Shown here: piece after piece, positions 1 through 14,779 of the stretch
Layout of the letters: the number at the start of each line of letters is the position of its first letter
How positions within the stretch are numbered: the stretch's first letter is position 1
Assembly: GCA_003838145.1 (NCBI GenBank)
Contig: QYZZ01000010.1
Location: 1 to 33,624 of the forward strand
Direction: 5' to 3'
Source of the DNA: Tindallia sp. MSAO_Bac2
GTDB taxonomy: Bacteria > Bacillota > Clostridia > Peptostreptococcales > Tindalliaceae
Length of the DNA: 33,624 bases
The notes under the pieces: model-generated
Seen by the model: only the letters and a program-made list of their open reading frames with translations
What the model was told of the DNA's origin: nothing
Databases searched by the model: none
Program-made: the position numbers and the translations under genes

Positions 1-335
1 GCCATGCTCTTTTTGAGGGCTGACGTTAGATGTTTTTGGGTTGCTTCCTTTTCTTTCCTTTTTCGAGGTGTTACGGGCCTATGGACCCATGGTTTTTGGG
101 TTTGATTTCCGAGAGGCTACATGCTATGTCAAGAACCTTTCAACTTACAGTATAAAGAGGTTATATGTCGTTTTTGTGACCAATGATTAAATATGTAAAA
201 AAATAGCAAACTGAGTTAGTGCAATAAGCTGTGCCACTTCGTAACAAATGATACCTATTTCATTAGAAAAAAAACGTATAATTGATGATACTGCAAAACA
301 TATAAAAAAGGCTGACGGGAGAGGGGACTTCGGAA
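1..335. other. Gene-free left edge with RND operon promoter
   Basis: No credible coding region is visible in the first 335 bases. Bases 1-180 are T/G-rich on the + strand, with a pyrimidine-rich run at about 45-65 and a short imperfect inverted repeat around 76-90 (GGGCC followed by GGACCC). They could be the tail of something cut off by the window edge, but nothing identifiable is seen. Bases 241-289 hold the promoter and operator of the RND operon, listed separately. A ribosome binding site (GAGGGGAC, 321-328) precedes the first gene. Confidence 0.6.
241..282 (+). promoter_or_regulatory. Class II Crp/Fnr-type site and -10 box of the RND operon
   Basis: The site GTAACAAATGATAC (241-254) is an imperfect palindrome of form GTAAC-N4-GTTAC with one mismatch. 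Exactly 22 bases later comes a perfect TATAAT (277-282). At a 17-bp spacing the -35 hexamer would be CCTATT, far from TTGACA. The site centre is 34.5 bases from the last base of the -10, so about -41.5 from the expected start near 289. The same arrangement recurs at 5429-5470 and 9819-9860. The bound protein is inferred, not shown. Confidence 0.65.
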
Positions 336-1613
336 ATGAAGAGCAAAAATAAAAAATGGGGATACAGAGTGCTGTTTCTGACTATGGCAGTGATCTTTGC
401 TTTAGTGGTACTGCCTCGGTTTTTATTGAATAGGGATTATGATGAAGAAATGACTGAGTCGGGGATTCCGGTTCAGAGCATGGAAGTGGAAACGGGCATA
501 CTAAAAGAAACCGTTCGGTACACAGGGAGTGTTGAGCCGGACAAATCAGTGACTTTGTCGGCGCAGATGTCAGCGTTGGTGAAAAACATCTACTATCGGG
601 AAGGGGAGGTAGTGGAGCAGGGCAATACAATAATAACTTTAAATAACGAAAGGCTTACTGCTTCCTATCGATCTTTGGAGCAGAATAAAGCCAGGCTGGA
701 AGAAAATTCAGCCTATATGGACCGGGAAATTACTGGCTTTGAAAAAGATCATCAACTGGTAAAAAAATTAGAGGCAGCTAAAAACCTCAAAGAGTATCTG
801 TTTAATGAACTGGAAAAACTTGAGACACTTTATGAATACGGAGCAGTATCCCAAACAGAATATGAAAAACTGGCTCATGAAGCAAAAACGGCAGAATTGC
901 AGTATCAGGAACTGGAAGCAACAGCAGACGCCACGCTTCAGCAACTGATCCATGAACGGACAATGAGTCATTATCAGGCACAGGAAATTCAGGCAAAAAT
1001 GGATGAAATGAAATTGCAGATTGATGATGCAACGATGGAAGCTCCTTTTAAGGGACAGATCCGCAAAATTTTTTATGAAGAAGGGGATCTGGCGGCAATG
1101 GGTCAGCCTGTTGCCATCATAGATGATGTCAGTAAGTTTTTGCTCAGAGTTGCGGTCAGCGAGGCAGATCTGGTGCGTATCAACGAAGAAACAACCGTTT
1201 CAGTAAAACTAACGGGAACAAATGAGGAAATAAGAGCGGAAATGAACAGAATTTTGCCGGATGTTCATCCGATATCCAAGGTGGGAGAAGTGGAAATAAG
1301 CCTCTTTCCTGATTCAGAAAACAAAATATTTATTGGAGCAGGCGCCCAGGCTTCAATTCATCTGTCGCAGACCAGTGATGGAGATATTGTTATTCCCTCT
1401 TCGGCAATCAGGCGCATGACAGACTATCAGGCTGTCTATGTAATTCAGGATCAGCAGGTAGAAGAACGAAAAATTTCTACAGGCATGTCTGTGGACGGTC
1501 TAACGCAAATCTTAGAAGGACTGGAACCCGGGGAAATGATTGCAACGAAAAATATAAGCAAATTATACGATGGCGCTAACGTCACAATTTTCAGGGGTGT
1601 GGATGAGTCATGA
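336..1613 (+). CDS. RND efflux periplasmic-adaptor-type (HlyD/MFP) subunit
   Basis: This 425-residue protein is the adaptor (membrane fusion) subunit of an RND-type export system. It is made as an N-terminally anchored protein: a basic start (MKSKNKK) is followed by one membrane segment at about 10-30, with no lipobox cysteine. The first half of a lipoyl/barrel-sandwich domain lies at about 70-100, an alpha-helical coiled-coil hairpin at about 100-230, and the second lipoyl half (APFKGQI, from residue 236) comes next. A beta-barrel and a C-terminal membrane-proximal domain follow, as usual in the family. The ATG is preceded by GAGGGGAC. The stop overlaps the start of the permease gene by four bases (ATGA), so the two are translationally coupled. 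No outer-membrane TolC-type partner is present, as expected for a Gram-positive cell. Substrate cannot be told from sequence. Confidence 0.9.
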   Translation: MKSKNKKWGYRVLFLTMAVIFALVVLPRFLLNRDYDEEMTESGIPVQSMEVETGILKETVRYTGSVEPDKSVTLSAQMSALVKNIYYREGEVVEQGNTIITLNNERLTASYRSLEQNKARLEENSAYMDREITGFEKDHQLVKKLEAAKNLKEYLFNELEKLETLYEYGAVSQTEYEKLAHEAKTAELQYQELEATADATLQQLIHERTMSHYQAQEIQAKMDEMKLQIDDATMEAPFKGQIRKIFYEEGDLAAMGQPVAIIDDVSKFLLRVAVSEADLVRINEETTVSVKLTGTNEEIRAEMNRILPDVHPISKVGEVEISLFPDSENKIFIGAGAQASIHLSQTSDGDIVIPSSAIRRMTDYQAVYVIQDQQVEERKISTGMSVDGLTQILEGLEPGEMIATKNISKLYDGANVTIFRGVDES

Positions 1614-4600
1614 ATATTGGGGAATTTTCTATTCGACGAAAGCATTTGATGCTTTCATTAATGATCGGTATTCTGATCTTTGGCATTTACTCCCGGTTTG
1701 CTCTGAACACCCAGTTGGCGCCGGAAACAAACCCTCCTATGGTGACGGTGATAACGCAGTATCCGGGAGCAGCAGCCCAGGATGTTGTCTCTGATGTAAT
1801 CGAACCTCTGGAAGATGTTTTTGGAACCCTGGATGGGATTCAGTCTGTCAGCGCAACCAGTCAGGATAATATTGCCATTATTCAGCTGGAATTTGACTAC
1901 TCGCTGAATACGGATGAAGCCGCTGTAGATGCACAAAATGCAATCAGCCGTGTGAGGGAAAGCCTGCCTGAAGCCATTCATGAACCCTCTGTGCTAAAGT
2001 TTAGCACAGCAGACATACCCATTCTGGAAATCGGGTTGTTCAGTGAATCAATGAGTATGCAGGATATACGCTACCTGGCGGATGATGAAATAGCCTACCG
2101 GCTACAGCTGGTTAGCGGCGTTGCGGCAGTTGACGTTTTTGGAGGAAATGAGCAGGAAGTGATGGTGCAGGTCAATCCATCGCGAATAGCAGCCTACAGC
2201 CTTTCCTTGGAACAGGTAGCCGGTCAGATTCGCCTGAATAATATACAAATGCCCGGTGGGCAGATTTTGCATCACGGAAAAGAAATATTGATCCGGATGG
2301 ATGAAGGATACACCAGTTTGGATCAACTTAAACGGACCGTTATTAACCTTCCTGATGGTGGAACAATCTATCTGCAGGATATTGCTGATATAAGAACAAC
2401 GATAGAAAACAACACCAGCCGGTATCACTTGGATGGGGAAGAAGCCATAGCGCTTCAAATTACAAAAAGAGCAGATGATAATACCATCCAGGTGATTGAA
2501 AACGTGATGCAGGAGCTGGAAGCGCTTGAAAAGGACTACCCGTTCCTGCAATTCGAAATTGCACAGGATGACTCTGTGTTTACCAGCCAGATGGTAAATA
2601 ATATGTCAGCTAGCGTCATGCTGGCTATTCTGTTTACGGTCATTGTGATTCTTCTGTTTATTGGAAATATAAGCCAGTCCCTGGTGGTGTCGATCTCAAT
2701 GCCTTTGGTTTTTTTAAGCACACTGGCCCTGATGCAGGCAACAGGAATGGAACTGGATATGGTGACGCTGTCTGCATTGATTCTGAGCATTGGATTTGTG
2801 GTTGATGCGGCTATAGTCGTCGTGGAAAATATCATCAGCCATTACGCAAATGGACAAAAATCCATCACAGAAGCGGCAATTGACGGCGTAAACGAAATTG
2901 TCGGTCCCAGCCTTTCCGGCGCTACGACTACTATAATCGTGCTGGTACCATTGCTGTTTATTGAAGGCTTTGTAGGAGAGATGTTTCGTCCATTATCCCT
3001 GACATTGCTTTTTGCCATCACTTCATCACTGATTATTGCACTGACCATCATCCCGATGCTTATAGTGCTTATGAACCGATTCCAATTTGTTCGGCTGGAA
3101 AAATTCACAAACAGGCTTAGTTTTCCATTTAATCGATTGATGGACCGGGTGATGAAATTTTATCTTAATCTGATGAATACAGTCCTTAAAAATAAGAAAA
3201 AAGCATACTTGATCCTGGCGCTCTTAATGATTGCCAGTGTTGCTTTTATGGCCGTGAATGGTCTGGAAATGCTTCCTTTGTTTGACAGCGGTGTTACGTA
3301 TATCACAATCGAAATGGAGCCGGGAACACCACTGACAGAGACGGTTTCGTCGGTGGAATACATTGAGTCTCTGTTGAAGGAAGAACCAAATGTTGTCAGT
3401 TTTAACACTCAAATTGGCTATGAACAGGGAAACATTCAAATGGGAGATTTTGGCGTGATGGGGACAAATCAGGCCATGACAACAGTGAATTTATCTACCC
3501 GAAAAGAAAGAAAAGAAAGCATATGGGAATTTCAGGAGAGAATTCGTTCAGAAATAGAAAAAATTCCGGATTTAAAACGATATGTCGTTAAGGAGCAGGG
3601 TGGAACAGCTGTTACCGGAACTTCAGCACCACTGGATCTGAGAATCAGTGGAAGCGACCCGGAAGTGCTGGATGTCATTGCGGATGAAATGCTGGTTCAA
3701 ATACAAGACATTCCGGGAACAACCAATGTATACAAAAGCATTGAAATAGATCAGATGGAAATGAAGCTGATCATGAATGAATCACGAATACTGGAACTGG
3801 GGTTGAACAAAGAACAGGTTGCTTCAGGGATTTATGCAACTGTGGAAGGGATTCAGCAGACAAACATGAATGTGGGAGAAATGATGAAACTTGATCTGTT
3901 GGTGGGTTATGGAGTGGAAGACTCTGACACGTTGGACCGATTAATGGACAGAAGTCTGCAGACACCGGTTGGCATTTCCGTACCGATCCGCGAACTGGTT
4001 CATGTGGATACGGGATACCGTTCCGGGATGCTTACCCGTGAGGATAAGGAACACACCGTAAATATTAACGGATTTACGCATGAAAGAGCATTTAGTCATA
4101 TTGTGCGGGACATTAACCGTCTGGTGGATGATTATCCTGTACCGGCAGGGTATAGTATGGGGATGGCTGGTGAACAGGAAGCCCTGGGAGACTCTATGCA
4201 GGATATGATTTTTCTGCTGGCACTGGCCATTATTTTTGTATATCTGGTCTTGGTTCCACAATTCAAATCATTCCTTCACCCTCTTACCATCATGATGGCC
4301 ATTCCGTTGGTGCTGATCGGAATAGCACCTGCATTGGCACTGACGAATAAATACATTTCAATGCCGGTACTGCTGGGAATCATCCTACTGGCAGGAACTG
4401 TAGTGAACAATGCCATTCTTTTGATCGACAACATACTTTTCCGTCGCCGGGAAGGAGCTTCTGTTGAGGAGGCGGTTCATCAGGCTATTGAGGCACGATT
4501 CCGGCCCATTATGATGACGGCCTTTTCAGATGTTGCCGGCATGATGCCTCTGGCAATGCAGCTGGCTTTGGGCTCTGAACGGTTTTCTCCGCTGGCTATT

Positions 4601-4720
4601 GCGGTCATAGGCGGAATCATTGCAGCAACTTTCTTAACTACTATTGTTATTCCACTTATTTATGTGACCTTTGAAGAATCAAAAATCATAAAAAAAATGC
4701 GAAGAGGCGTTCAGGAATAG
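1610..4720 (+). CDS. RND-family efflux permease (AcrB/HAE-type)
   Basis: At 1036 residues this has the full length of an AcrB/MexB-type proton-driven exporter. It has an N-terminal membrane helix (about 12-30), a large external porter loop, a cluster of membrane segments at about 330-540, a second porter loop, and a final cluster at about 860-1020. The TM4 motif reads GFVVDAAIVVVEN with D399. The family's usual second acidic residue (AcrB D408) is alanine here (A400). In the TM10 equivalent, where AcrB carries the essential lysine, the sequence is GTVVNNAILLID (N933, N934). The proton relay is therefore reduced relative to AcrB, a pattern I believe also occurs in other Firmicute RND pumps. 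The start overlaps the adaptor gene by four bases. A bidirectional terminator follows. The operon promoter has the GTAAC-type site at 241-254. Confidence 0.93.
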   Translation: MNIGEFSIRRKHLMLSLMIGILIFGIYSRFALNTQLAPETNPPMVTVITQYPGAAAQDVVSDVIEPLEDVFGTLDGIQSVSATSQDNIAIIQLEFDYSLNTDEAAVDAQNAISRVRESLPEAIHEPSVLKFSTADIPILEIGLFSESMSMQDIRYLADDEIAYRLQLVSGVAAVDVFGGNEQEVMVQVNPSRIAAYSLSLEQVAGQIRLNNIQMPGGQILHHGKEILIRMDEGYTSLDQLKRTVINLPDGGTIYLQDIADIRTTIENNTSRYHLDGEEAIALQITKRADDNTIQVIENVMQELEALEKDYPFLQFEIAQDDSVFTSQMVNNMSASVMLAILFTVIVILLFIGNISQSLVVSISMPLVFLSTLALMQATGMELDMVTLSALILSIGFVVDAAIVVVENIISHYANGQKSITEAAIDGVNEIVGPSLSGATTTIIVLVPLLFIEGFVGEMFRPLSLTLLFAITSSLIIALTIIPMLIVLMNRFQFVRLEKFTNRLSFPFNRLMDRVMKFYLNLMNTVLKNKKKAYLILALLMIASVAFMAVNGLEMLPLFDSGVTYITIEMEPGTPLTETVSSVEYIESLLKEEPNVVSFNTQIGYEQGNIQMGDFGVMGTNQAMTTVNLSTRKERKESIWEFQERIRSEIEKIPDLKRYVVKEQGGTAVTGTSAPLDLRISGSDPEVLDVIADEMLVQIQDIPGTTNVYKSIEIDQMEMKLIMNESRILELGLNKEQVASGIYATVEGIQQTNMNVGEMMKLDLLVGYGVEDSDTLDRLMDRSLQTPVGISVPIRELVHVDTGYRSGMLTREDKEHTVNINGFTHERAFSHIVRDINRLVDDYPVPAGYSMGMAGEQEALGDSMQDMIFLLALAIIFVYLVLVPQFKSFLHPLTIMMAIPLVLIGIAPALALTNKYISMPVLLGIILLAGTVVNNAILLIDNILFRRREGASVEEAVHQAIEARFRPIMMTAFSDVAGMMPLAMQLALGSERFSPLAIAVIGGIIAATFLTTIVIPLIYVTFEESKIIKKMRRGVQE

Positions 4721-4730
4721 CATTAACTTA

Positions 4731-4769
4731 AAAAGCCTGCCCATTTGATGCTGAAGGGCAGGCTTTTTT
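4731..4769. terminator. Bidirectional terminator between RND operon and Fe-S gene
   Basis: An inverted repeat AAAAGCCTGCCC (4731-4742) / GGGCAGGCTTTT (4756-4767) has a 13-base loop. It is followed by T residues on the + strand and preceded by an A-run that gives T residues on the - strand. It lies between two convergent genes and can serve both. Confidence 0.9.
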
Positions 4770-4781
4770 GAGGTAGTGGAG

Positions 4782-5396
4782 TTATCCATATTGAATACAT
4801 TCTTTGGGACACACTCTGGCACAGGCCGTACAGGCAAGGCAGTCCCTGGGTGAAACGACGGCAGGACTTCTGCTTTCCGGTATGGTGACAGCTTCGGCAG
4901 GGCAAACTTTTACGCAAAGACCACAGCTGATACACTCCTTGGAATTTACCTGCCACTTTTTTCGCGCTGCTTTTCCGGGAATTTGTTGCAGGGTACCGTA
5001 GGGGCACAAATACCGATGCCAAAACTCCGGCACAAAAAACAGTGAAACAAGAATCCCCAGAACGGTAAGAGCCGGTAGTACTGGTAGCTTCAGCCCGAAA
5101 CGCAGTGCAGAAGCCATTAATACAAGAAAAATCAATAAAAACCCATAACGCAGTGCTGGATTTTTTGCCCAGGCAGGAACGGGTTTTCGGATTTTTTTCT
5201 GTTTCCTGAACCAGCGGTCCTGCTGTTCCATAATGGTATTGATGGGGCAGATCCAGCCGCAATAAAACCGGCTGAAAAATAATGCACCCAGTAAACTGAT
5301 GAAAAACACAGCCATCCAGATCTGAATACGTCCTGTGAAAATAAGGATTAAAAATAGTGCCAGGAAAGTCCACTGAATAATACGTTGATATTTCAC
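4782..5396 (-). CDS. NapH/CcoG-like membrane 4Fe-4S protein
   Basis: This 204-residue membrane ferredoxin-like protein resembles the NapH/NosR/CcoG (Fer4_5) group, which pass electrons across or along the membrane. Hydrophobic segments lie at about 8-22, 26-42, 85-102 and 105-122. Two membrane-edge CxxxCP motifs, C46-GWI-C50-P and a YLCPYG near 131, are diagnostic of the group. The C-terminus holds two classical ferredoxin motifs, CISCGLCVKVCP (about 155-166) and CLACTACARVCP (about 186-197). The start is GTG with GGAGG seven bases upstream. The gene is divergent from the Crp/Fnr gene, and its promoter has the GTAAC-type site at 5457-5470. A role as electron donor to the NrfA encoded nearby is attractive because no nrfH is seen, but this is inference. 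Confidence 0.85.
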   Translation of the reverse strand: MKYQRIIQWTFLALFLILIFTGRIQIWMAVFFISLLGALFFSRFYCGWICPINTIMEQQDRWFRKQKKIRKPVPAWAKNPALRYGFLLIFLVLMASALRFGLKLPVLPALTVLGILVSLFFVPEFWHRYLCPYGTLQQIPGKAARKKWQVNSKECISCGLCVKVCPAEAVTIPESRSPAVVSPRDCLACTACARVCPKECIQYG

Positions 5397-5428
5397 GTTA
5401 CCGCCTCCGTTTTCCTTTGTTTACTATC

Positions 5429-5470
5429 ATCATAACCGGGAATCAATATGAATACGGTACCGTTTGTTAC
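5429..5470 (-). promoter_or_regulatory. Class II Crp/Fnr-type site and -10 box of the NapH-like gene
   Basis: Read on the - strand, GTAACAAACGGTAC (5470 down to 5457) is followed after exactly 22 bases by TATGAT (5434 down to 5429). The -35 position reads CCGTAT, so no intrinsic -35 is evident. Spacing and -10 match the cupin promoter exactly. The site is also about 30 bases upstream of the ATG of the divergent Crp/Fnr gene, so binding here could autoregulate that gene. A perfect 10-base palindrome ACGGTACCGT (5454-5463) overlaps it. Confidence 0.65.
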
Positions 5471-5500
5471 GGAAAAAATCGAATGATGGAGGATAAAACC

Positions 5501-6196
5501 ATGAAAATCAGCAGCACTCCTGAAACATGGAAAGAAATTAAGAAGTGTGACCTGTTTGAGGGTATCGGTGATTCGGAAATAGAAGCGTTAATGGACGCCG
5601 TTAATGGAAAGGTGCAGGAATATTCCAAGCACTCTGTGGTAGCCCTTGAAGGAGAAGAATGCAACAGAGTCGGTATTGTTTTGCGGGGGAAAGTGGATGT
5701 AAGAAGGATCCATGCATCTGGAAAGGAAATGACAATTACTTCGCTGAAGGAAGGAGATACTTTTGGAGAAGTAATGGTTTTTTCAGACCACCATAAATAT
5801 CCTTCGACACTTTACACTGAAGCCGGAGTTAAAATTATTCAGATCCCCCAGAAAGATATACTTATTCTATGTAAAACCAGTGAAAGGTTTCTGGAAAATT
5901 TAATTAGGCTGCTTTCAAACAAGGTATGGATGATGAACGAGAAGCTCAAAATGCTTACCTATCAGAGTATTAAACAACGAATTGCAGCTTACTTATTGGA
6001 AGAGCATTGGAAGCAGGAATCAATGCAAATCATATTGCCTCACAATCGTCAGGAAATGGCTGATTTTCTGGGGATACCCAGACCGTCTCTATCAAGAGAA
6101 ATGGCAAATCTGAAAAAAGAAGGTCTGATAGATTACCATAAATCGAATATCACACTCTACAGCGTGGAAGCTCTGAGAAAAATAAATAATGACTGA
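5501..6196 (+). CDS. Crp/Fnr-family transcriptional regulator
   Basis: A 231-residue Crp/Fnr protein. The cyclic-nucleotide-binding-like beta-roll is at about 18-125 (motifs GIVLRGKVDVRR and LKEGDTFGEV), then the dimerisation helix. A C-terminal winged helix-turn-helix starts with N182-RQEMADFLGIPRPSLSRE, whose SLSRE end is the typical recognition helix. The cysteines are scattered, and there is no N-terminal cysteine cluster as in oxygen-sensing Fnr, so a bound 4Fe-4S cluster is unlikely. The ATG at 5501 was chosen over longer in-frame TTG/ATG options because TGGAGG lies eight bases before it. Such regulators commonly sit next to hcp in anaerobes and sense nitrosative stress (HcpR type). That assignment is by context only. 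It is the best candidate to bind the three GTAAC-N4-GnTAC sites. Confidence 0.9.
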   Translation: MKISSTPETWKEIKKCDLFEGIGDSEIEALMDAVNGKVQEYSKHSVVALEGEECNRVGIVLRGKVDVRRIHASGKEMTITSLKEGDTFGEVMVFSDHHKYPSTLYTEAGVKIIQIPQKDILILCKTSERFLENLIRLLSNKVWMMNEKLKMLTYQSIKQRIAAYLLEEHWKQESMQIILPHNRQEMADFLGIPRPSLSREMANLKKEGLIDYHKSNITLYSVEALRKINND

Positions 6197-6198
6197 TT

Positions 6199-6230
6199 AA
6201 AGGCACCCACGAATACGAGGGTGCCTTTTT
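6199..6230. terminator. Terminator between the crp-type gene and hcp
   Basis: AAAGGCACCC (6199-6208) pairs with GGGTGCCTTT (6219-6228) across a 10-base loop, followed by T residues. It lies between convergent genes. Confidence 0.9.
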
Positions 6231-6239
6231 ATAAATCAG

Positions 6240-7886
6240 TTATTGCATAAACGCTTGAATGTCTTCATCCACACTTCCGATGGGTGCCAGATCAAACTTA
6301 TCTACTATGACCTGTGCTACATTCGGTGACAGGAAGCCGGGCAGCGTGGGGCCCAGATGAATGTTTTTTATACCAAGAGACAGCAGTGCCAGCAGTACAA
6401 GTACGGCCTTTTGTTCATACCAGGCTATGTTATATGAAATAGGAAGATCGTTGACATCTTCCAATTCGAAGGCATCTTTTAAGGCCAGTGCTATTTTCAC
6501 CAACGAATAGGAATCGTTGCACTGCCCTGCATCCAGAACCCTTGGAATTCCGCCGATATCGCCAAGATCAATCTTGTTGTATCGATATTTGGCACATCCG
6601 GCTGTAAGAATCACTGTATCTTCCGGCAAGGCTTTAGCAAAGTCGGTGTAGTAGGCACGTTCATTTTGCCGGGCATCACAGCCACCCATAACAAAGAAGC
6701 GTTTAATAGCTCCGCTCTTTACGGCTTCAATTACTTTGTCGGCTAATGCGATTACCTGATTGTGAGCAAAGCCCCCATAGATTTCTCCGGATTCCAGCTC
6801 TTCCGGTGGATCGCATTTTTTTGCATGTTCAATAAGAGCTGAAAAATCCTTCGGCTGCCCGTTGACACGATCCGGTATGAATTGACATCCGGGGAAGCCA
6901 ACGGCGTTTGTATTGTAAATCTTGCCTTTATAGCTGTCTCGTGGTGGAACAAGGCAATTGGAAGTCAGAAGAACCGGGCCGTTAAATTTTTCGAATTCAA
7001 CATTCTGGTGCCACCAGGAGCCGCCATAATTTCCGACAAAATGATCATATTTTTTAAAGGACGGGTAGGAATTTGCCGGAAGCATCTCACTATGAGTATA
7101 GATGTCCACGCCACTGTCTTTGGACTGTTCAAGCAACTCTTCCAAATCCTTCAAATCATGTCCGCTGATCAGAATTCCCGGGTTATTGCGAACACCGATG
7201 TTTACTTTTGTCATTTCCGGATGGCCATAAGAACCGGTATTGGCATCATCTAAAAGCTTCATAGCCTGTACACCCATGGCACCGGTTTCCAAAGTCAGGG
7301 CCACCAGATCATCGGCAGTAAGCGAATCATCCGTCAATTTTGCCAGCGTATCCTGAATAAAATCATGAACTTCCGGATCTTCAAACCCCAGATTGTTAGC
7401 ATGATGCGTATAAGCAGACATGCCTTTTAACCCGTAGGTGATCATTTCTTTCAGAGATCTGATATCTTCTTCTTTTTCAGAAAGAACACCAACGGTTTCG
7501 GCTTTGGCTTCCATTTCTTTTGTGCTGTCGGCAAACCACACAGCTTCGTCACGTTCCGGAACCTTAATTTCTGGAGCTTCCTGTGCCAGCTTTTGCTTTA
7601 AATCTTCTCTCATTTGAAGTCCCTGGCGGATTTTCTCAATAAAAACATCCTTATCGAAATTTGCATTGGTGATGGTGGCAAAAAGCCCGTATAAAATATA
7701 ATGATCCACATCTAAGGACCTTTTTCCCAGTTTGTTGAGTTCGCGGCTGTATAAGGATATTCCCTTAACGGTATGAATCATTAAATCCTGAATCTTTGCC
7801 ACGTCTTCTTTTTTTCCGCATACACCAATACGTGTACATCCGGTATTATTAACGGTTTCTTGGCATTGATAACAAAACATGCTCAT
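6240..7886 (-). CDS. hcp: Hydroxylamine reductase / hybrid cluster protein
   Basis: This 548-residue cytoplasmic protein is a hybrid cluster protein, which reduces hydroxylamine in vitro and is linked to NO/nitroxyl detoxification in vivo. The N-terminus has C5-x2-C8-x8-C17-x5-C23, the class I cysteine spacing of strict anaerobes that binds the cubane cluster. Hybrid-cluster ligands are recognisable in order: the His of ISGHDL, the Glu of HSEMLP, the Cys of TSNCLVPP, then cysteines in GGCDARQ, TAGCAKY and GQCNDS, and the Glu/Lys of WYEQKA. Length is normal. The chosen ATG has AGGAGG six bases upstream. It is convergent with the Crp/Fnr gene and divergent from nrfA. I see no GTAAC-type site or clear promoter in its upstream region. 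Confidence 0.96.
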
Positions 7887-8196
7887 GTTAATCCTCCTTC
7901 TTCATACAATCTTTTTCATGTAGATAAAGTACCTGGAAGATGCAACCGGCTAAACCAATTCCAACCCCTCCTTCATCAGAATTGTATAAACATTGCAACA
8001 ACTAAATACCAAAAAAAGAGAGACTTAATCACCTTGAAGGAAAATACATTAAAATCATTTGTTATTTCGAATAAATAGTGGGTATTTGTTTAAATTTAAA
8101 AATGATGTAATCCTGTTTATAATGGAGGGTGAAAGAATATATGTCCTAATAAGTGAAAACATTCCAATCCGCAAGCAAAAAAATGGAGGAGATCCT
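7887..8196. other. Intergenic region between hcp and nrfA
   Basis: This 310-base divergent spacer has no convincing gene. It is A/T-rich toward nrfA. On the nrfA side there are a TATAAT (8118-8123), an inverted repeat TTATT-TCG-AATAA (8062-8074) and an AT palindrome TTTAAATTTAAA (8089-8100). On the hcp side a TACAAT (- strand, 7986-7981) could be a -10, but no good -35 partner was found. No GTAAC-type site is present in either direction. Confidence 0.6.
8062..8123 (+). promoter_or_regulatory. Putative nrfA promoter region
   Basis: A perfect TATAAT at 8118-8123 gives an expected start near 8130 and a leader of about 67 bases. The -35 position (TTTAAA) is poor, so activation is plausible. The inverted repeat TTATT-TCG-AATAA (8062-8074) is centred about 62 bases upstream of the expected start, a class I activator distance. 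Its sequence differs from the GTAAC-type sites, so the regulator may differ. Such short AT-rich repeats can occur by chance. Confidence 0.4.
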
Positions 8197-9393
8197 ATGT
8201 CTAAAATAAGAGATAACAGGTTGCTGAGCACGGCGATTATTGTTGTTTTAGCTGTTTTTGTGCTGGCAGGCATCAACTACATTATTATGCAGTCGGATGA
8301 AATCGTTTATGCTGAAGGATGGGCAGATGATCAGCCTGATCAGTACCAAAGTTACTTAAGAAATGCTGAAATGGTTCAAACCACTTTTGGAGGATCTGAG
8401 CCCTACGATTATCTGGAAAAATATCCGGAGCTGAAAACCATTTATGAGGGCGTAGGCTTTGATATCGACTATCTTCGTGCAAGAGGGCATGTTTATGCTC
8501 TGGAAGACGTGATAAACACAGGAAGAAACAAAGCGGGAGCCAGCTGTCTTGCCTGTAAAACAGCGGACTACGTTGCGATGGAAGAAGAGCACGGCAGCGA
8601 TTTATACGCCATGGACTTTTATGAAATGGCAGAAGAGGCAAAAACAGGTGTAAGCTGTTATGACTGCCATCGAAATGAACCGGGTGTTTTGCAAATTACA
8701 AGAGGTCATCTGGAAAAAGGACTGGAGCATCTGGAAGAAGAGCACGATATGAAAAATCTGGTCTGTGCCCAATGCCATATTGAATATTACCTTCATCCGG
8801 AAACGAAAGAAGTTACGGTACCATGGAAATATGGTACAGATGTGGCAGATATTGAAGCCACCTTTATTGAATGGAACTTTACAGATTGGACACATCCAAG
8901 AACCGGAGGGGATTTATATAAAATCCAGCACCCGGAGTTTGAAACATATTTGGGAAGCGTTCATGATAATTTTGGCGCTACCTGTGTAGACTGCCACATG
9001 CCTCAAATGGAAAATGAAGAAGGAGGCAGTTATCATCATTCCCACCATTGGACTAGTCCGCTTCATACGGTTGAATCATCCTGCATGGATTGCCACAGCG
9101 GAAGCGAAGAAGACCTGATTGCTGAAGTGGAAGCTCTCCAGGGAGAAGTTGTAGAAAAAACTGCTAAAGTAACCCGACAACTGGAGGAACTCATACTACG
9201 CATTGAGGCAGAAAAAGATGCCTTGCCGGAAGACGTGCGGGAAGAAGTTTATCAGCTGCAACGAAGTGCTCAGGTAAGATGGGATTTTGTGTTTGTGGAA
9301 AACAGCCAGGGCTTCCATAATCATGAAAAAGCCATGGCATATCTCCGGGAAGCAGACGAGATGATCGAAAAAGCTCATGAACTAATGGATTAA
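8197..9393 (+). CDS. nrfA: Ammonia-forming cytochrome c nitrite reductase (pentaheme)
   Basis: This 398-residue NrfA catalyses the six-electron reduction of nitrite to ammonium outside the membrane. Five c-type haem motifs are present: the catalytic-haem motif C117-LA-C120-K121, where lysine replaces histidine as in canonical NrfA, and four CxxCH motifs starting at C154, C190, C263 and C296. The family's KIQHPEFE and HHSHHWTSP blocks are present. A hydrophobic segment at about 11-32 is a signal or membrane anchor. It is shorter than the E. coli enzyme (about 480), as are other compact NrfA proteins. ATG 8197 has TGGAGGAG just upstream. Longer in-frame starts were rejected. No nrfH or haem-maturation gene is in the window, so the electron donor is unknown. 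The NapH-like protein at 4782-5396 is one candidate. Confidence 0.95.
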   Translation: MSKIRDNRLLSTAIIVVLAVFVLAGINYIIMQSDEIVYAEGWADDQPDQYQSYLRNAEMVQTTFGGSEPYDYLEKYPELKTIYEGVGFDIDYLRARGHVYALEDVINTGRNKAGASCLACKTADYVAMEEEHGSDLYAMDFYEMAEEAKTGVSCYDCHRNEPGVLQITRGHLEKGLEHLEEEHDMKNLVCAQCHIEYYLHPETKEVTVPWKYGTDVADIEATFIEWNFTDWTHPRTGGDLYKIQHPEFETYLGSVHDNFGATCVDCHMPQMENEEGGSYHHSHHWTSPLHTVESSCMDCHSGSEEDLIAEVEALQGEVVEKTAKVTRQLEELILRIEAEKDALPEDVREEVYQLQRSAQVRWDFVFVENSQGFHNHEKAMAYLREADEMIEKAHELMD

Positions 9394-9410
9394 TAGCAAC
9401 TCTTCACAAC

Positions 9411-9438
9411 AAAGGCCACCCGCAGAGGTGGCCTTTTA
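9411..9438. terminator. Terminator after nrfA
   Basis: AAAGGCCACC (9411-9420) pairs with GGTGGCCTTT (9427-9436) over a six-base loop, followed by T. It lies between the convergent nrfA and cupin genes. Confidence 0.88.
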
Positions 9439-9457
9439 TCATGATAAGGAGACACAG

Positions 9458-9775
9458 TTAAAAGTTAGGAGTCTTAACATTCAGGACACTGAAGGTTTCA
9501 TCCTGGTCTGCCCACAGAGCCATATCTGTTTTGGGCGGGCAAAGAATAATATCTGTTGCTTCTACCACGGCCTTTTCTTCGCCAATCTGAATGGTACCTT
9601 TCCCGGATACCACGTAAAAAAAGACGGCAACCGGAACATTATGGTGTGGGACATGATCTCCGGGACTAAGTGTTAAATTCATAACTCGGGTGTTGTCATG
9701 ACTGATTAACTGCTTTGCAACAACCCCTCTTTGATTTTTCTTGCCTTCCATTTCATTCATACGAATGATTTCCAT
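9458..9775 (-). CDS. Small cupin-domain protein
   Basis: A 105-residue single-domain cupin. The first cupin motif is visible as SPGDHVPHHNVPVAVFFYVV followed by SGKGTI. The HH pair could bind a metal, but the usual glutamate of motif 1 is not obvious. The second motif lies in ATDIILCPPKTD and is weak, lacking the typical histidine. Metal binding is therefore possible but may be partial. The ATG has AAAGGAG upstream. It is transcribed alone, convergent with nrfA, from a promoter with the best palindromic GTAAC-type site in the window. Small cupins next to redox genes are often sensors or detoxifying enzymes. No specific reaction can be assigned. Confidence 0.82.
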   Translation of the reverse strand: MEIIRMNEMEGKKNQRGVVAKQLISHDNTRVMNLTLSPGDHVPHHNVPVAVFFYVVSGKGTIQIGEEKAVVEATDIILCPPKTDMALWADQDETFSVLNVKTPNF

Positions 9776-9818
9776 ATTAATACTCCTTTCAATTTCAAGT
9801 TTATTGCTCTATATGCTT

Positions 9819-9860
9819 ATCATACAGATTTCTTGAATGAATAACGGTAACGCACGTTAC
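9819..9860 (-). promoter_or_regulatory. Class II Crp/Fnr-type site and -10 box of the cupin gene
   Basis: The + strand reads GTAACG-CA-CGTTAC (9847-9860), a perfect 14-base palindrome with two central bases. Read on the - strand, GTAACGTGCGTTAC is followed after exactly 22 bases by TATGAT (9824 down to 9819). The -35 position reads CCGTTA. The centre-to--10 distance of 34.5 equals that of the promoters at 241-282 and 5429-5470. A bound regulator would sit at about -41.5. Confidence 0.7.
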
Positions 9861-9989: not shown

Positions 9990-11144
9990 TCAGTAGCGGA
10001 ATATTGCAGCCAGGTCGCTGTCTCCAGGCATTTCATCTGAAGGAAGAACGTAAACACTGCCTCCGTTAAGGTAAGCCTGCTGAGCTGCCAGATTTAATAA
10101 ATCATTATTTTCAGGTCTTGGTTCATCCTCAAAAGAGATGTCCGTTGCATCATCGTTGACCTGACCCCAGCAATGCTTCCCTTTGGCAACGAAAATGGTT
10201 TCTACTCTTCCGTGGAAGGAAGCCAATACAATATCTTCCAGTTGTCTTGAAGCCCGACCCGTTCCTTCCAGTTCTGCAAACTGGTGCAAGGCCTTTTCCT
10301 GAGCTTGTTTAAACAACGGATGAACAACTCCCAGTGCTTCCTGATGCAGGTTTTTCAGTGTCATATCCTCCGGATTACCGGTAATCCCTTTATCAATCAG
10401 CTGAGGATAGGTGTTGGCTTCGCGGTAAATAGGGAACAGGTAATCAACGCCTGCCAATACCAACGGTGCCTCAGGCTGGGTGATTTTTTCCTGAATTCCC
10501 TTGTCTACCTTGTGAAAGAATTGAAGCAAATCTTTCTTTGTATTTTCCATGCCGATTCCCTGACCGTGGAAGGAAGCAGCTCTTTTTCCATCTCCTCCCT
10601 GAGGCATGCGGGTATTAAACTGCAATTGCTTTTCCAGATCGTCATAACGGAGTGCCTCGTTAAGGCTTTCGGGAATCCCATCCAGATTCAATGGATAAAT
10701 GCTTTGGGGAGACCCCTGGAACAATCGAATTTGATTTTGGCTCAGGGTCAGCAGATAAAACTGCTGATCCTGGGTGAGTAAAGGCATCAAGGGTTTAAGA
10801 TGGAATTGGTTTCCCACTTCTGTCACCATATCAAAACTTAATGGAAGTCGATAATAGCGAAATTCGTTGGGGCTTACAAATACAGCAAGACCATCCTGCT
10901 GATGACTCCAAAAAATGCTGTCATTCAAGAGGGTATCAATAGGACTTAAAAGTTTTTCAATATCAGCAGCCCGATAACCAGTTTCTTTTAACTGTTCTTC
11001 TGCCTGACGAAGGAGATTTTTCAGTCTGATCCGATTCTGCTGAGCCTCCGTACCCACCGGATCCGTGGGAAGGAAAAAAGAGACACAGGGCTCCTCCCCG
11101 ATATTCATTAATTCACGCAATTCTTCTTTATTGAACTGTTTCAT
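9990..11144 (-). CDS. baeRF-type (bacterial archaeo-eukaryotic release factor-like) protein
   Basis: A 384-residue protein recognised by overall pattern as one of the bacterial release-factor-like (baeRF) families related to eRF1 and Pelota. The N-terminus carries VSFFLPTDPVG. A middle domain contains H193-G194-Q195 in RAASFHGQGIG, which may correspond to the glycine-glutamine loop used by release factors to hydrolyse peptidyl-tRNA. The C-terminal part has the RASRQLEDIVLASFHGRVE block and ends with LAAQQAYLNGGSVYVLPS, typical of these proteins. Such proteins are proposed to act in ribosome rescue or conflict, but few have been tested. It has AAAGGAGG before its ATG, its own likely promoter (11180-11209) and its own terminator, so it is probably a single-gene unit. 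I am confident of the family, not of function. Confidence 0.75.
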   Translation of the reverse strand: MKQFNKEELRELMNIGEEPCVSFFLPTDPVGTEAQQNRIRLKNLLRQAEEQLKETGYRAADIEKLLSPIDTLLNDSIFWSHQQDGLAVFVSPNEFRYYRLPLSFDMVTEVGNQFHLKPLMPLLTQDQQFYLLTLSQNQIRLFQGSPQSIYPLNLDGIPESLNEALRYDDLEKQLQFNTRMPQGGDGKRAASFHGQGIGMENTKKDLLQFFHKVDKGIQEKITQPEAPLVLAGVDYLFPIYREANTYPQLIDKGITGNPEDMTLKNLHQEALGVVHPLFKQAQEKALHQFAELEGTGRASRQLEDIVLASFHGRVETIFVAKGKHCWGQVNDDATDISFEDEPRPENNDLLNLAAQQAYLNGGSVYVLPSDEMPGDSDLAAIFRY

Positions 11145-14212: not shown

Positions 14213-14779
14213 ATGCTAAGAGAATTGGTAATTAAAAACAGAACGTATCGAAGGTTTGATCAGGAGGCCGTTATTGAAGAACAGCAGTTGAGAGACTGGG
14301 TGGACTTGGCTCGCATGACCAGTTCCGGACAAAACAACCAGCCGTTGAAATATTTCTTGTCCTGCGACAGAGAAACCAACGATATGATTTTTCCGCACCT
14401 TAAGTGGGCTGGAGCTCTGAAAGACTGGGACGGGCCAGAAGAAGGAGAAAAACCGTCTGCCTATATTGTAATGCTGGGGGATACTGAAATCAGCAAAAAC
14501 TATTGGTGGGATCACGGACTGGCCGCCCAAAGCATCCTGTTGGCAGCAGTTGAAGAAGGCTATGGCGGATGTATGTTTGGATCTGTAGATAGAAAAAACC
14601 TGGCTATGGATATGAAATTGCCGGAACGATACGAAATTATTATGGTAATAGCTCTTGGAAAGCCGGTTGAAAATGTGGAGATGGTTCCGGTGGGACAGGA
14701 TGGCAATATGAAATATTATCGTGATGAAGAAGGAAACCACTTCGTGCCCAAGAGAGGGTTGGATGATATTATTATTTAG
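14213..14779 (+). CDS. Nitroreductase-family flavoprotein (short form)
   Basis: A 188-residue FMN-dependent nitroreductase-family protein. The N-terminus has NRTYRRFDQ, the variant of the RRSxRxF motif that binds FMN phosphate. ARMTSSGQNNQPLKYF is the second FMN-contact block, and AAVEEGYGGCMFGSVDR near 105-120 is the usual helix-glycine turn. AGGAGG precedes the ATG. It sits 30 bases after the diguanylate cyclase gene and 46 bases before the HD-GYP-type gene. Why a nitroreductase lies inside a c-di-GMP gene set is not clear. It may provide redox sensing or simply be co-transcribed. Substrate is unknown. Confidence 0.88.
   Translation: MLRELVIKNRTYRRFDQEAVIEEQQLRDWVDLARMTSSGQNNQPLKYFLSCDRETNDMIFPHLKWAGALKDWDGPEEGEKPSAYIVMLGDTEISKNYWWDHGLAAQSILLAAVEEGYGGCMFGSVDRKNLAMDMKLPERYEIIMVIALGKPVENVEMVPVGQDGNMKYYRDEEGNHFVPKRGLDDIII

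Follow-up and report, generated by a model that had tools for sequence, protein, structure and literature searches.

Within a 33,624-nucleotide stretch of Tindallia sp. MSAO_Bac2 (contig QYZZ01000010.1, positions 1 to 33,624; hereafter the window), three promoters that precede an RND-type pump operon, a gene for a NapH-like membrane polyferredoxin, and a small cupin gene are very probably class II targets of an HcpR2-type regulator encoded at 5501-6196 in the same window. A first-pass annotation of this DNA had proposed a candidate local regulon. The idea of one Crp/Fnr-type activator stands, but the regulon is not an unrecognised local one: judged by sequence, the GTAAC-type sites are an HcpR-type nitrosative-stress regulon, because their motif is the published HcpR2 motif, the recognition helix of the regulator matches it, and class II geometry is general among such sites. 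The sites, their -10 elements, and the regulator are located as follows.

241-254, forward strand: HcpR-type site 1, GTAACAAATGATAC, upstream of HlyD-RND; matrix score 30.3 bits
277-282, forward strand: -10 element TATAAT of the HlyD-RND promoter, 22 nucleotides (nt) past site 1
5457-5470, reverse strand: HcpR-type site 2, GTAACAAACGGTAC, in the divergent region between the NapH-like gene and the regulator
5429-5434 (read 5434-5429), reverse strand: -10 element TATGAT of the NapH-like gene, 22 nt from site 2
9847-9860, reverse strand: HcpR-type site 3, GTAACGTGCGTTAC, before the cupin gene
9819-9824 (read 9824-9819), reverse strand: -10 element TATGAT of the cupin gene, 22 nt from site 3
5501-6196, forward strand: predicted HcpR2-type Crp/Fnr regulator of 231 amino acids (Pfam cNMP_binding and HTH_Crp_2; recognition helix IPRPSLSR)

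The GTAAC-N4-GnTAC sites, their strands, and the 22-nt spacing to a TATNAT element are in all three cases exactly as the first-pass annotation described them. The pattern GTAACNNNNGNTAC occurs at three places in the window (four strand matches, as one site is palindromic), compared to 0.03 expected from dinucleotide shuffles. In the whole genome (2,484,674 bases in 129 contigs), GTAACNNNNGNTAC alone is not enriched, as it occurs at 10 places (13 strand matches) while a backwards control gave 38; the special feature is therefore the combination of site, spacing, and -10 element. The pattern GTWACNNNNGNTAC-N22-TATNAT has three perfect matches in the genome, all of them inside the window. Many equally good hits inside genes had been named beforehand as evidence that would speak against a regulon, and the genome scan found none there. 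No weaker class of sites was clearly discernible, with 36 genome matches at two or fewer mismatches and 35 in the control. Two other GTAAC-N4-GTTAC palindromes in the genome, one between open reading frames (ORFs) at C49:28331 and one inside an ORF at C58:65503, have no -10 element at 22 nt and were set aside. We also scored the window with a matrix built from 67 promoters of other genomes with a spacing of 22. The three sites scored 30.3, 26.5, and 22.4 bits, with site 2 below the lowest training promoter (25.4 bits), although the training motifs are perfect by construction. The only other matches above 7 bits in the window were the reverse face of site 2 (13.7 and 12.4 bits), and the best score across 10 Markov windows was 8.4 bits. 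If the last base of the -10 element is counted as -7, the site centre falls at -41.5, and with 22 nt to the -10 element and no good -35 element in all three promoters, the sequences have class II Crp/Fnr-type geometry. The class II position that had been suggested for these sites thus fits both their 22-nt spacing and the spacing peak in other genomes.

This peak came from a search of 297 genomes of the order for GTAACNNNNGTTAC-N(12-32)-TATNAT. Among the 150 matches listed, a few of which overlap as alternative -10 elements of one site, the spacing was 22 in 67, 23 in 20, and 21 in 10, with 0-8 matches at each other gap. Since the window's own family contributed no match to this list, the peak is independent of the finding in the window. 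With gaps of 12-32 pooled, the palindrome plus -10 element was present in 59 of the 65 genomes with a close HcpR (E <= 1e-40), compared to 66 of the 232 others, and those 65 genomes gave 219 matches versus 26 control matches. The 67 promoters with a spacing of 22 favour G at -33 (47/67) and A at -32 (57/67), as if the GA of a TTGACA -35 box had been partly kept, and the three sites of the window show only parts of this preference. The same site at 22 nt adjoins an HcpR relative in genomes G006, G001, and G002, and likewise in many of the order members that we read, so that site and spacing are conserved in the upstream regions of related genomes, a check that the first-pass annotation had recommended. 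On these sequences, class II activator geometry with 22-23 nt to the -10 element is general for clostridial HcpR sites.

The motif GTAACnnnnGTTAC has been published as that of HcpR2 and tied to proline at CRP position 181 (Rodionov et al. 2005, PMC1274295). Site 3 matches it exactly, and sites 1 and 2 each carry one mismatch in the second half-site. The specificity positions of the regulator are R194, P195, and R199 within IPRPSLSR, with R194 and P195 equivalent to CRP R180 and P181. Helix and motif thus fit the HcpR2 rule, and the site adjoins HcpR relatives elsewhere, both of which favour the gene at 5501 as the regulator, as had been proposed. The convergent neighbour of this gene is hcp, so the genomic link between HcpR2 and hcp is present here. 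HcpR had not been named in the first pass, though the adjoining hcp suggested it, and the HcpR-type identification lends support to the link with nitrite or nitric oxide (NO) that was drawn there. The regulator is 82% identical to its counterpart in G006, a genome of the same genus, and its closest named relative, the sole one from the genome-contig scan, lies in a Tindallia metagenome-assembled genome (81% identity). The FNR-type cysteine motif is absent, and there are three cysteines in all (C16, C54, and C124). As a lead only, C54 lies within an EGDxC stretch that many of the 16 proteins in the alignment share. Apart from this, a variant site, GTATC-N4-GATAC, lies 22 nt before TATGAT beside a Crp-like gene in genome G004 (L060, C2:326962-327003); the regulator there has threonine for proline at the specificity position, a possible co-change of helix and motif. 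A one-mismatch site on contig C1 of that genome lies inside an ORF and was regarded as chance.

The genes downstream of the three promoters are the following.

336-1613, forward strand: RND periplasmic-adaptor-type (HlyD) subunit (Pfam HlyD_3 and NCBIfam RND_mfp, both above cut-off)
1610-4720, forward strand: RND permease (Pfam ACR_tran, E 9.5e-216)
4782-5396, reverse strand: NapH-like membrane polyferredoxin with a GTG start, correcting the first-pass ORF (Pfam Fer4_5 and Fer4_7; the NapH name is our own label)
9458-9775, reverse strand: small cupin (Pfam Cupin_2)

Our comparisons point to the HlyD-RND pump as a recurrent HcpR-type target, beyond what we found in print. HlyD relatives (E <= 1e-30) occur in 9 of the 297 genomes of the order, and when the RND permease was searched for at class level (391 genomes, E <= 1e-250), two genomes came up beyond the window's own, G423 (57% identity) and G350 (43%). 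Of the 10 other genomes with a pump relative, 8 (one of them outside the order) have an HcpR-type site upstream of the pump, at 22 or 23 nt from a -10 element; the site is perfect in G039, G010, and G067 and has one mismatch in G111 and G423. The G010 site stands ahead of NapH, HlyD, and RND genes in that order. An HcpR-type gene lies beside the pump in seven of these 10 genomes (G002, G010, G021, G039, G067, G111, and G423), and six of the seven regulators have proline at position 181. The helix is altered in G002, with threonine at 181, and in G021, which has Arg-Pro but asparagine for the last arginine; the pump sites of the same two genomes are altered as well, to GTTAC-N4-GTCAC (L058) and GTAAT-N4-ATTAC (L139), respectively, a match that is post hoc but telling. 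Chance matches are rare, as 330,656 strand positions around pump and HcpR loci yielded only 11 such matches (0.01 per 300 nt), 10 of which are the promoter sites discussed here. No site was found at the second, more distant HlyD of G006. In G350 (L192), where no HcpR match or site was found, the gene after HlyD-RND is NapH-like and shares 54% identity with its counterpart in the window; pump and polyferredoxin may form a unit independently of HcpR. We found no paper that joins HcpR and RND pumps, and the one that came closest names HcpR a single time, unconnected with the pumps it treats; RegPrecise and supplementary tables were outside the scope of this search, and a tabulated prediction may exist.

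Because NapH-like and cupin genes recur downstream of such sites, those of the window fit a recurrent set. We found 54 ORFs as first downstream genes, with L085 and L098 being the same site counted twice, and scanned 29 of them plus the NapH-like gene of the window by Pfam; some of the unscanned ORFs were typed as Hcp by tblastn. The 30 scanned genes comprised 11 4Fe-4S ferredoxin-type genes that we label FrdX-like, 5 Hcp, 5 NapH-like, 2 flavodiiron, one each of HlyD, cupin, hemerythrin/PAS, ArsP-like permease, and GGDEF, and 2 without a family. In G011, G042, and G058, HcpR is divergent from a run made up of a NapH-like gene and a cupin gene. Members of the cupin family (E <= 1e-12) are present in 7 of the 297 genomes, all with a close HcpR (6/6 outside the window's own). 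An ORF at 4723-5373 that overlaps the NapH-like gene matched no family in Pfam or NCBIfam. Elsewhere in the window, a nitroreductase-family gene (14213-14779) lies near the nitrogen-oxide block and had no HcpR-type site in the matrix scan, and 9990-11144 encodes a baeRF-type protein whose ribosome hibernation factor family match is below cut-off (168 vs 330 bits).

Two further genes of the block behave differently.

6240-7886, reverse strand: hcp, hybrid cluster protein (Pfam Prismane; NCBIfam NF003658 above cut-off)
8059-9393, forward strand: nrfA-like cytochrome c552 ORF, start uncertain (Pfam Cytochrom_C552; NCBIfam nitrite reductase models below cut-off)

The first-pass annotation had placed the three targets in a block with hcp and nrfA, but the sites do not support this wider block, as neither gene carries one of its own: the matrix scan of the window found none above 7 bits for either, and the best 14-mer upstream of hcp has three mismatches. 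We therefore rejected both as direct targets, although hcp is ordinarily a target of HcpR; such targeting does not define the regulator itself. In related genomes, we searched for hcp in 42 (38 of the 65 with a close HcpR, plus G004, G005, G010, and G111) and read the best hcp locus in 30. A site lies within 1.3 kb upstream in 16 of these 30, and within 500 nt in 14 of the 16. Additional hcp copies were read in G006, G001, G002, and the window's own genome (G000), and none of these second copies had a site; the one in G000 (C85:410-2038) is 63% identical to the hcp of the window. In G006, the full hcp is on C86, and C41 (L056:12904-13350) holds only hcp fragments (residues about 140-216 and 475-548) beside an RND fragment at the contig end, which we read as an assembly or rearrangement scar.

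Several observations weigh against our interpretation. The hcp site was present in none of the eight genomes with the HcpR closest to that of the window (G000, G006, G001, G002, G011, G033, G042, and G058; 44-100% identity), compared to 16 of the 22 others, a contrast that likewise goes beyond what we found in print; the Fisher P value of 5e-4 takes no account of relatedness among the genomes and so overstates the difference, and the grouping was made post hoc. The ninth-closest HcpR belongs to G095 (43%), where hcp does carry a site, with one mismatch. In the window, hcp and nrfA thus lack a direct site, and indirect or other control of them is possible. An NCBIfam search of the regulator matched no HcpR-named model, and no model reached its cut-off. 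For the pump, three of the eight sites carry two mismatches (G006, G002, and G021), no site was found upstream of the pumps of G157 and G350, and by tblastn the pump genes look interrupted in G010, which lacks parts of HlyD and RND, and in G067, whose RND is split over two frames. The pump-adjoining regulators share only 31-38% identity with the window's regulator, and no site was found near the cupin relatives in G157 and G021. Lastly, the HcpR of Porphyromonas gingivalis has been reported to be a heme-based NO sensor in which Met68 serves as a heme ligand (PMC12750200), and this residue aligns with Arg69 of our regulator. The alignment was made via the solved chain 9day_A, whose sequence around the methionine fits the primers given in that paper. 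The regulator would therefore have to use another ligand or another sensor; heme-based NO sensing by the 5501-6196 product is conceivable with a ligand other than that of P. gingivalis.

Motif, helix signature, spacing, and conservation come from the sequence, and we infer binding, the NO signal, the direction of regulation, autoregulation, and the pump substrate. By analogy with the P. gingivalis protein, NO would be the signal. Stress from NO or nitrite would render the regulator dimer competent to bind GTAAC-N4-GTTAC centred at -41.5, and the bound dimer would contact RNA polymerase, standing in for the missing -35 element. This contact would switch on the HlyD-RND exporter, the NapH-like membrane polyferredoxin, and the small cupin. 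A dimer at site 2 would also obstruct transcription of hcpR and probably dampen it (negative autoregulation), because 30 nt separate the end of the reverse face of site 2 from the ATG of the regulator; visual inspection of close relatives placed the site some 13 to 50 nt ahead of the HcpR start. In a C. difficile hcpR::Tn mutant, the hcpR signal was higher (listed as 1.42, log2; PMC12915319), which is consistent with autoregulation, although the transposon itself may be the cause. The probable cargo of the pump is nitrosated or otherwise toxic compounds arising from nitrite and NO chemistry, a role like that suggested for E. coli MdtEF. The host is probably single-membraned, so that the pump would work without a TolC partner, and to our knowledge little has been established about RND substrates in anaerobes.

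We considered three other explanations. The regulator could repress the three promoters until NO relieves the repression, as has been modelled in print for Desulfovibrio desulfuricans HcpR2, a different protein of the same name (PMC5701242). We regard this as improbable, since a centre at -41.5, the lack of a good -35 element, and a spacing of 22-23 nt kept over many genomes are activator geometry, and hcp and frdX are lowered in the hcpR mutant of C. difficile (PMC12915319). Marginally less probable still is that the gene at 5501 is a bystander and that the sites belong to a different Crp/Fnr protein. The genome does hold two other weak Crp-like matches, on C90 (26% identity) and C35 (20%), but it is the 5501 product whose helix signature and motif fit the HcpR2 rule, the site adjoins an HcpR relative in many of the genomes read, and the C90 protein has Arg-Glu rather than Arg-Pro at the specificity positions (of the two, C90 was the one aligned). 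It is also conceivable that the three promoters are alike by chance and share no regulator, and the lack of genome-wide enrichment of the site without its -10 element, together with two-mismatch matches equal to the control, would suit that view. However, three perfect matches within 10 kb with none elsewhere in the genome, and the recurrence of site and spacing across families, make this the least credible of the three, and conservation in particular disfavours it.

With HcpR2-type activation of the three promoters as the preferred reading, we lean slightly towards a broader scenario in which Clostridia and their relatives carry a dedicated HlyD-RND nitrosative-stress exporter switched on by HcpR-type regulators via class II sites. 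This exporter would move together with its regulator and occasionally also with a NapH-like polyferredoxin, and the regulator in the window's lineage would have left hcp to serve the pump, polyferredoxin, and cupin. On the preferred reading, the apparently unknown regulon receives a named regulator and a published motif, and the promoter geometry of clostridial HcpR sites is fixed as class II with 22-23 nt to the -10 element. The RND pump of an anaerobe would gain a predicted physiological role in nitrosative stress, and in one lineage the target that gave the regulator its name would no longer be a direct one.

The closest precedent for the regulon is that of HcpR2, which spans Clostridia, Thermotogales, Bacteroides, Fusobacterium, and Treponema (PMC1274295). 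It has in common with the window the motif, a Crp/Fnr regulator with proline at 181, and the gene link to hcp, and the same study predicts in C. tetani an operon of a permease and a ferredoxin-like protein divergent from an HcpR2 paralogue. The window differs in its targets, which are an RND pump, a NapH-like protein, and a cupin, with hcp lacking a site; the main text of that study, leaving aside supplementary tables, mentions neither efflux, multidrug, nor cupin. C. difficile likewise has a clostridial HcpR with a ferredoxin-like target (frdX), and its HcpR is needed for defence against nitrosative stress, but only frdX-hcp had a site among the changed genes, and the text does not mention efflux, RND, or cupin (PMC12915319). 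Its HcpR also differs in having serine at 181 and another motif (Rodionov et al., PMC1274295). In D. desulfuricans, the cupin-fold gene Ddes_1828 and the adjacent hcp make up one of the two gene clusters that NO induces most strongly, and nrfHA is again without an HcpR site, although the HcpR proteins and motifs are different and repression by an Fe-S regulator has been proposed (PMC5701242). RND is not mentioned in that paper, and an efflux pump-like protein, Ddes_1000 (value 2.9), appears in its section on growth conditions with no link to HcpR in that passage. For the pump itself, the likeness is to MdtEF of E. coli, an RND pump tied to anaerobic nitrosative damage whose mutants are susceptible to nitrosated indole derivatives (PMC4462101). 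MdtEF differs in its regulators (e.g., ArcBA, GadE, and CRP), in working with TolC, and in belonging to a proteobacterium (PMC4462101), and it would thus be the nearest analogue of the window's pump in function only.

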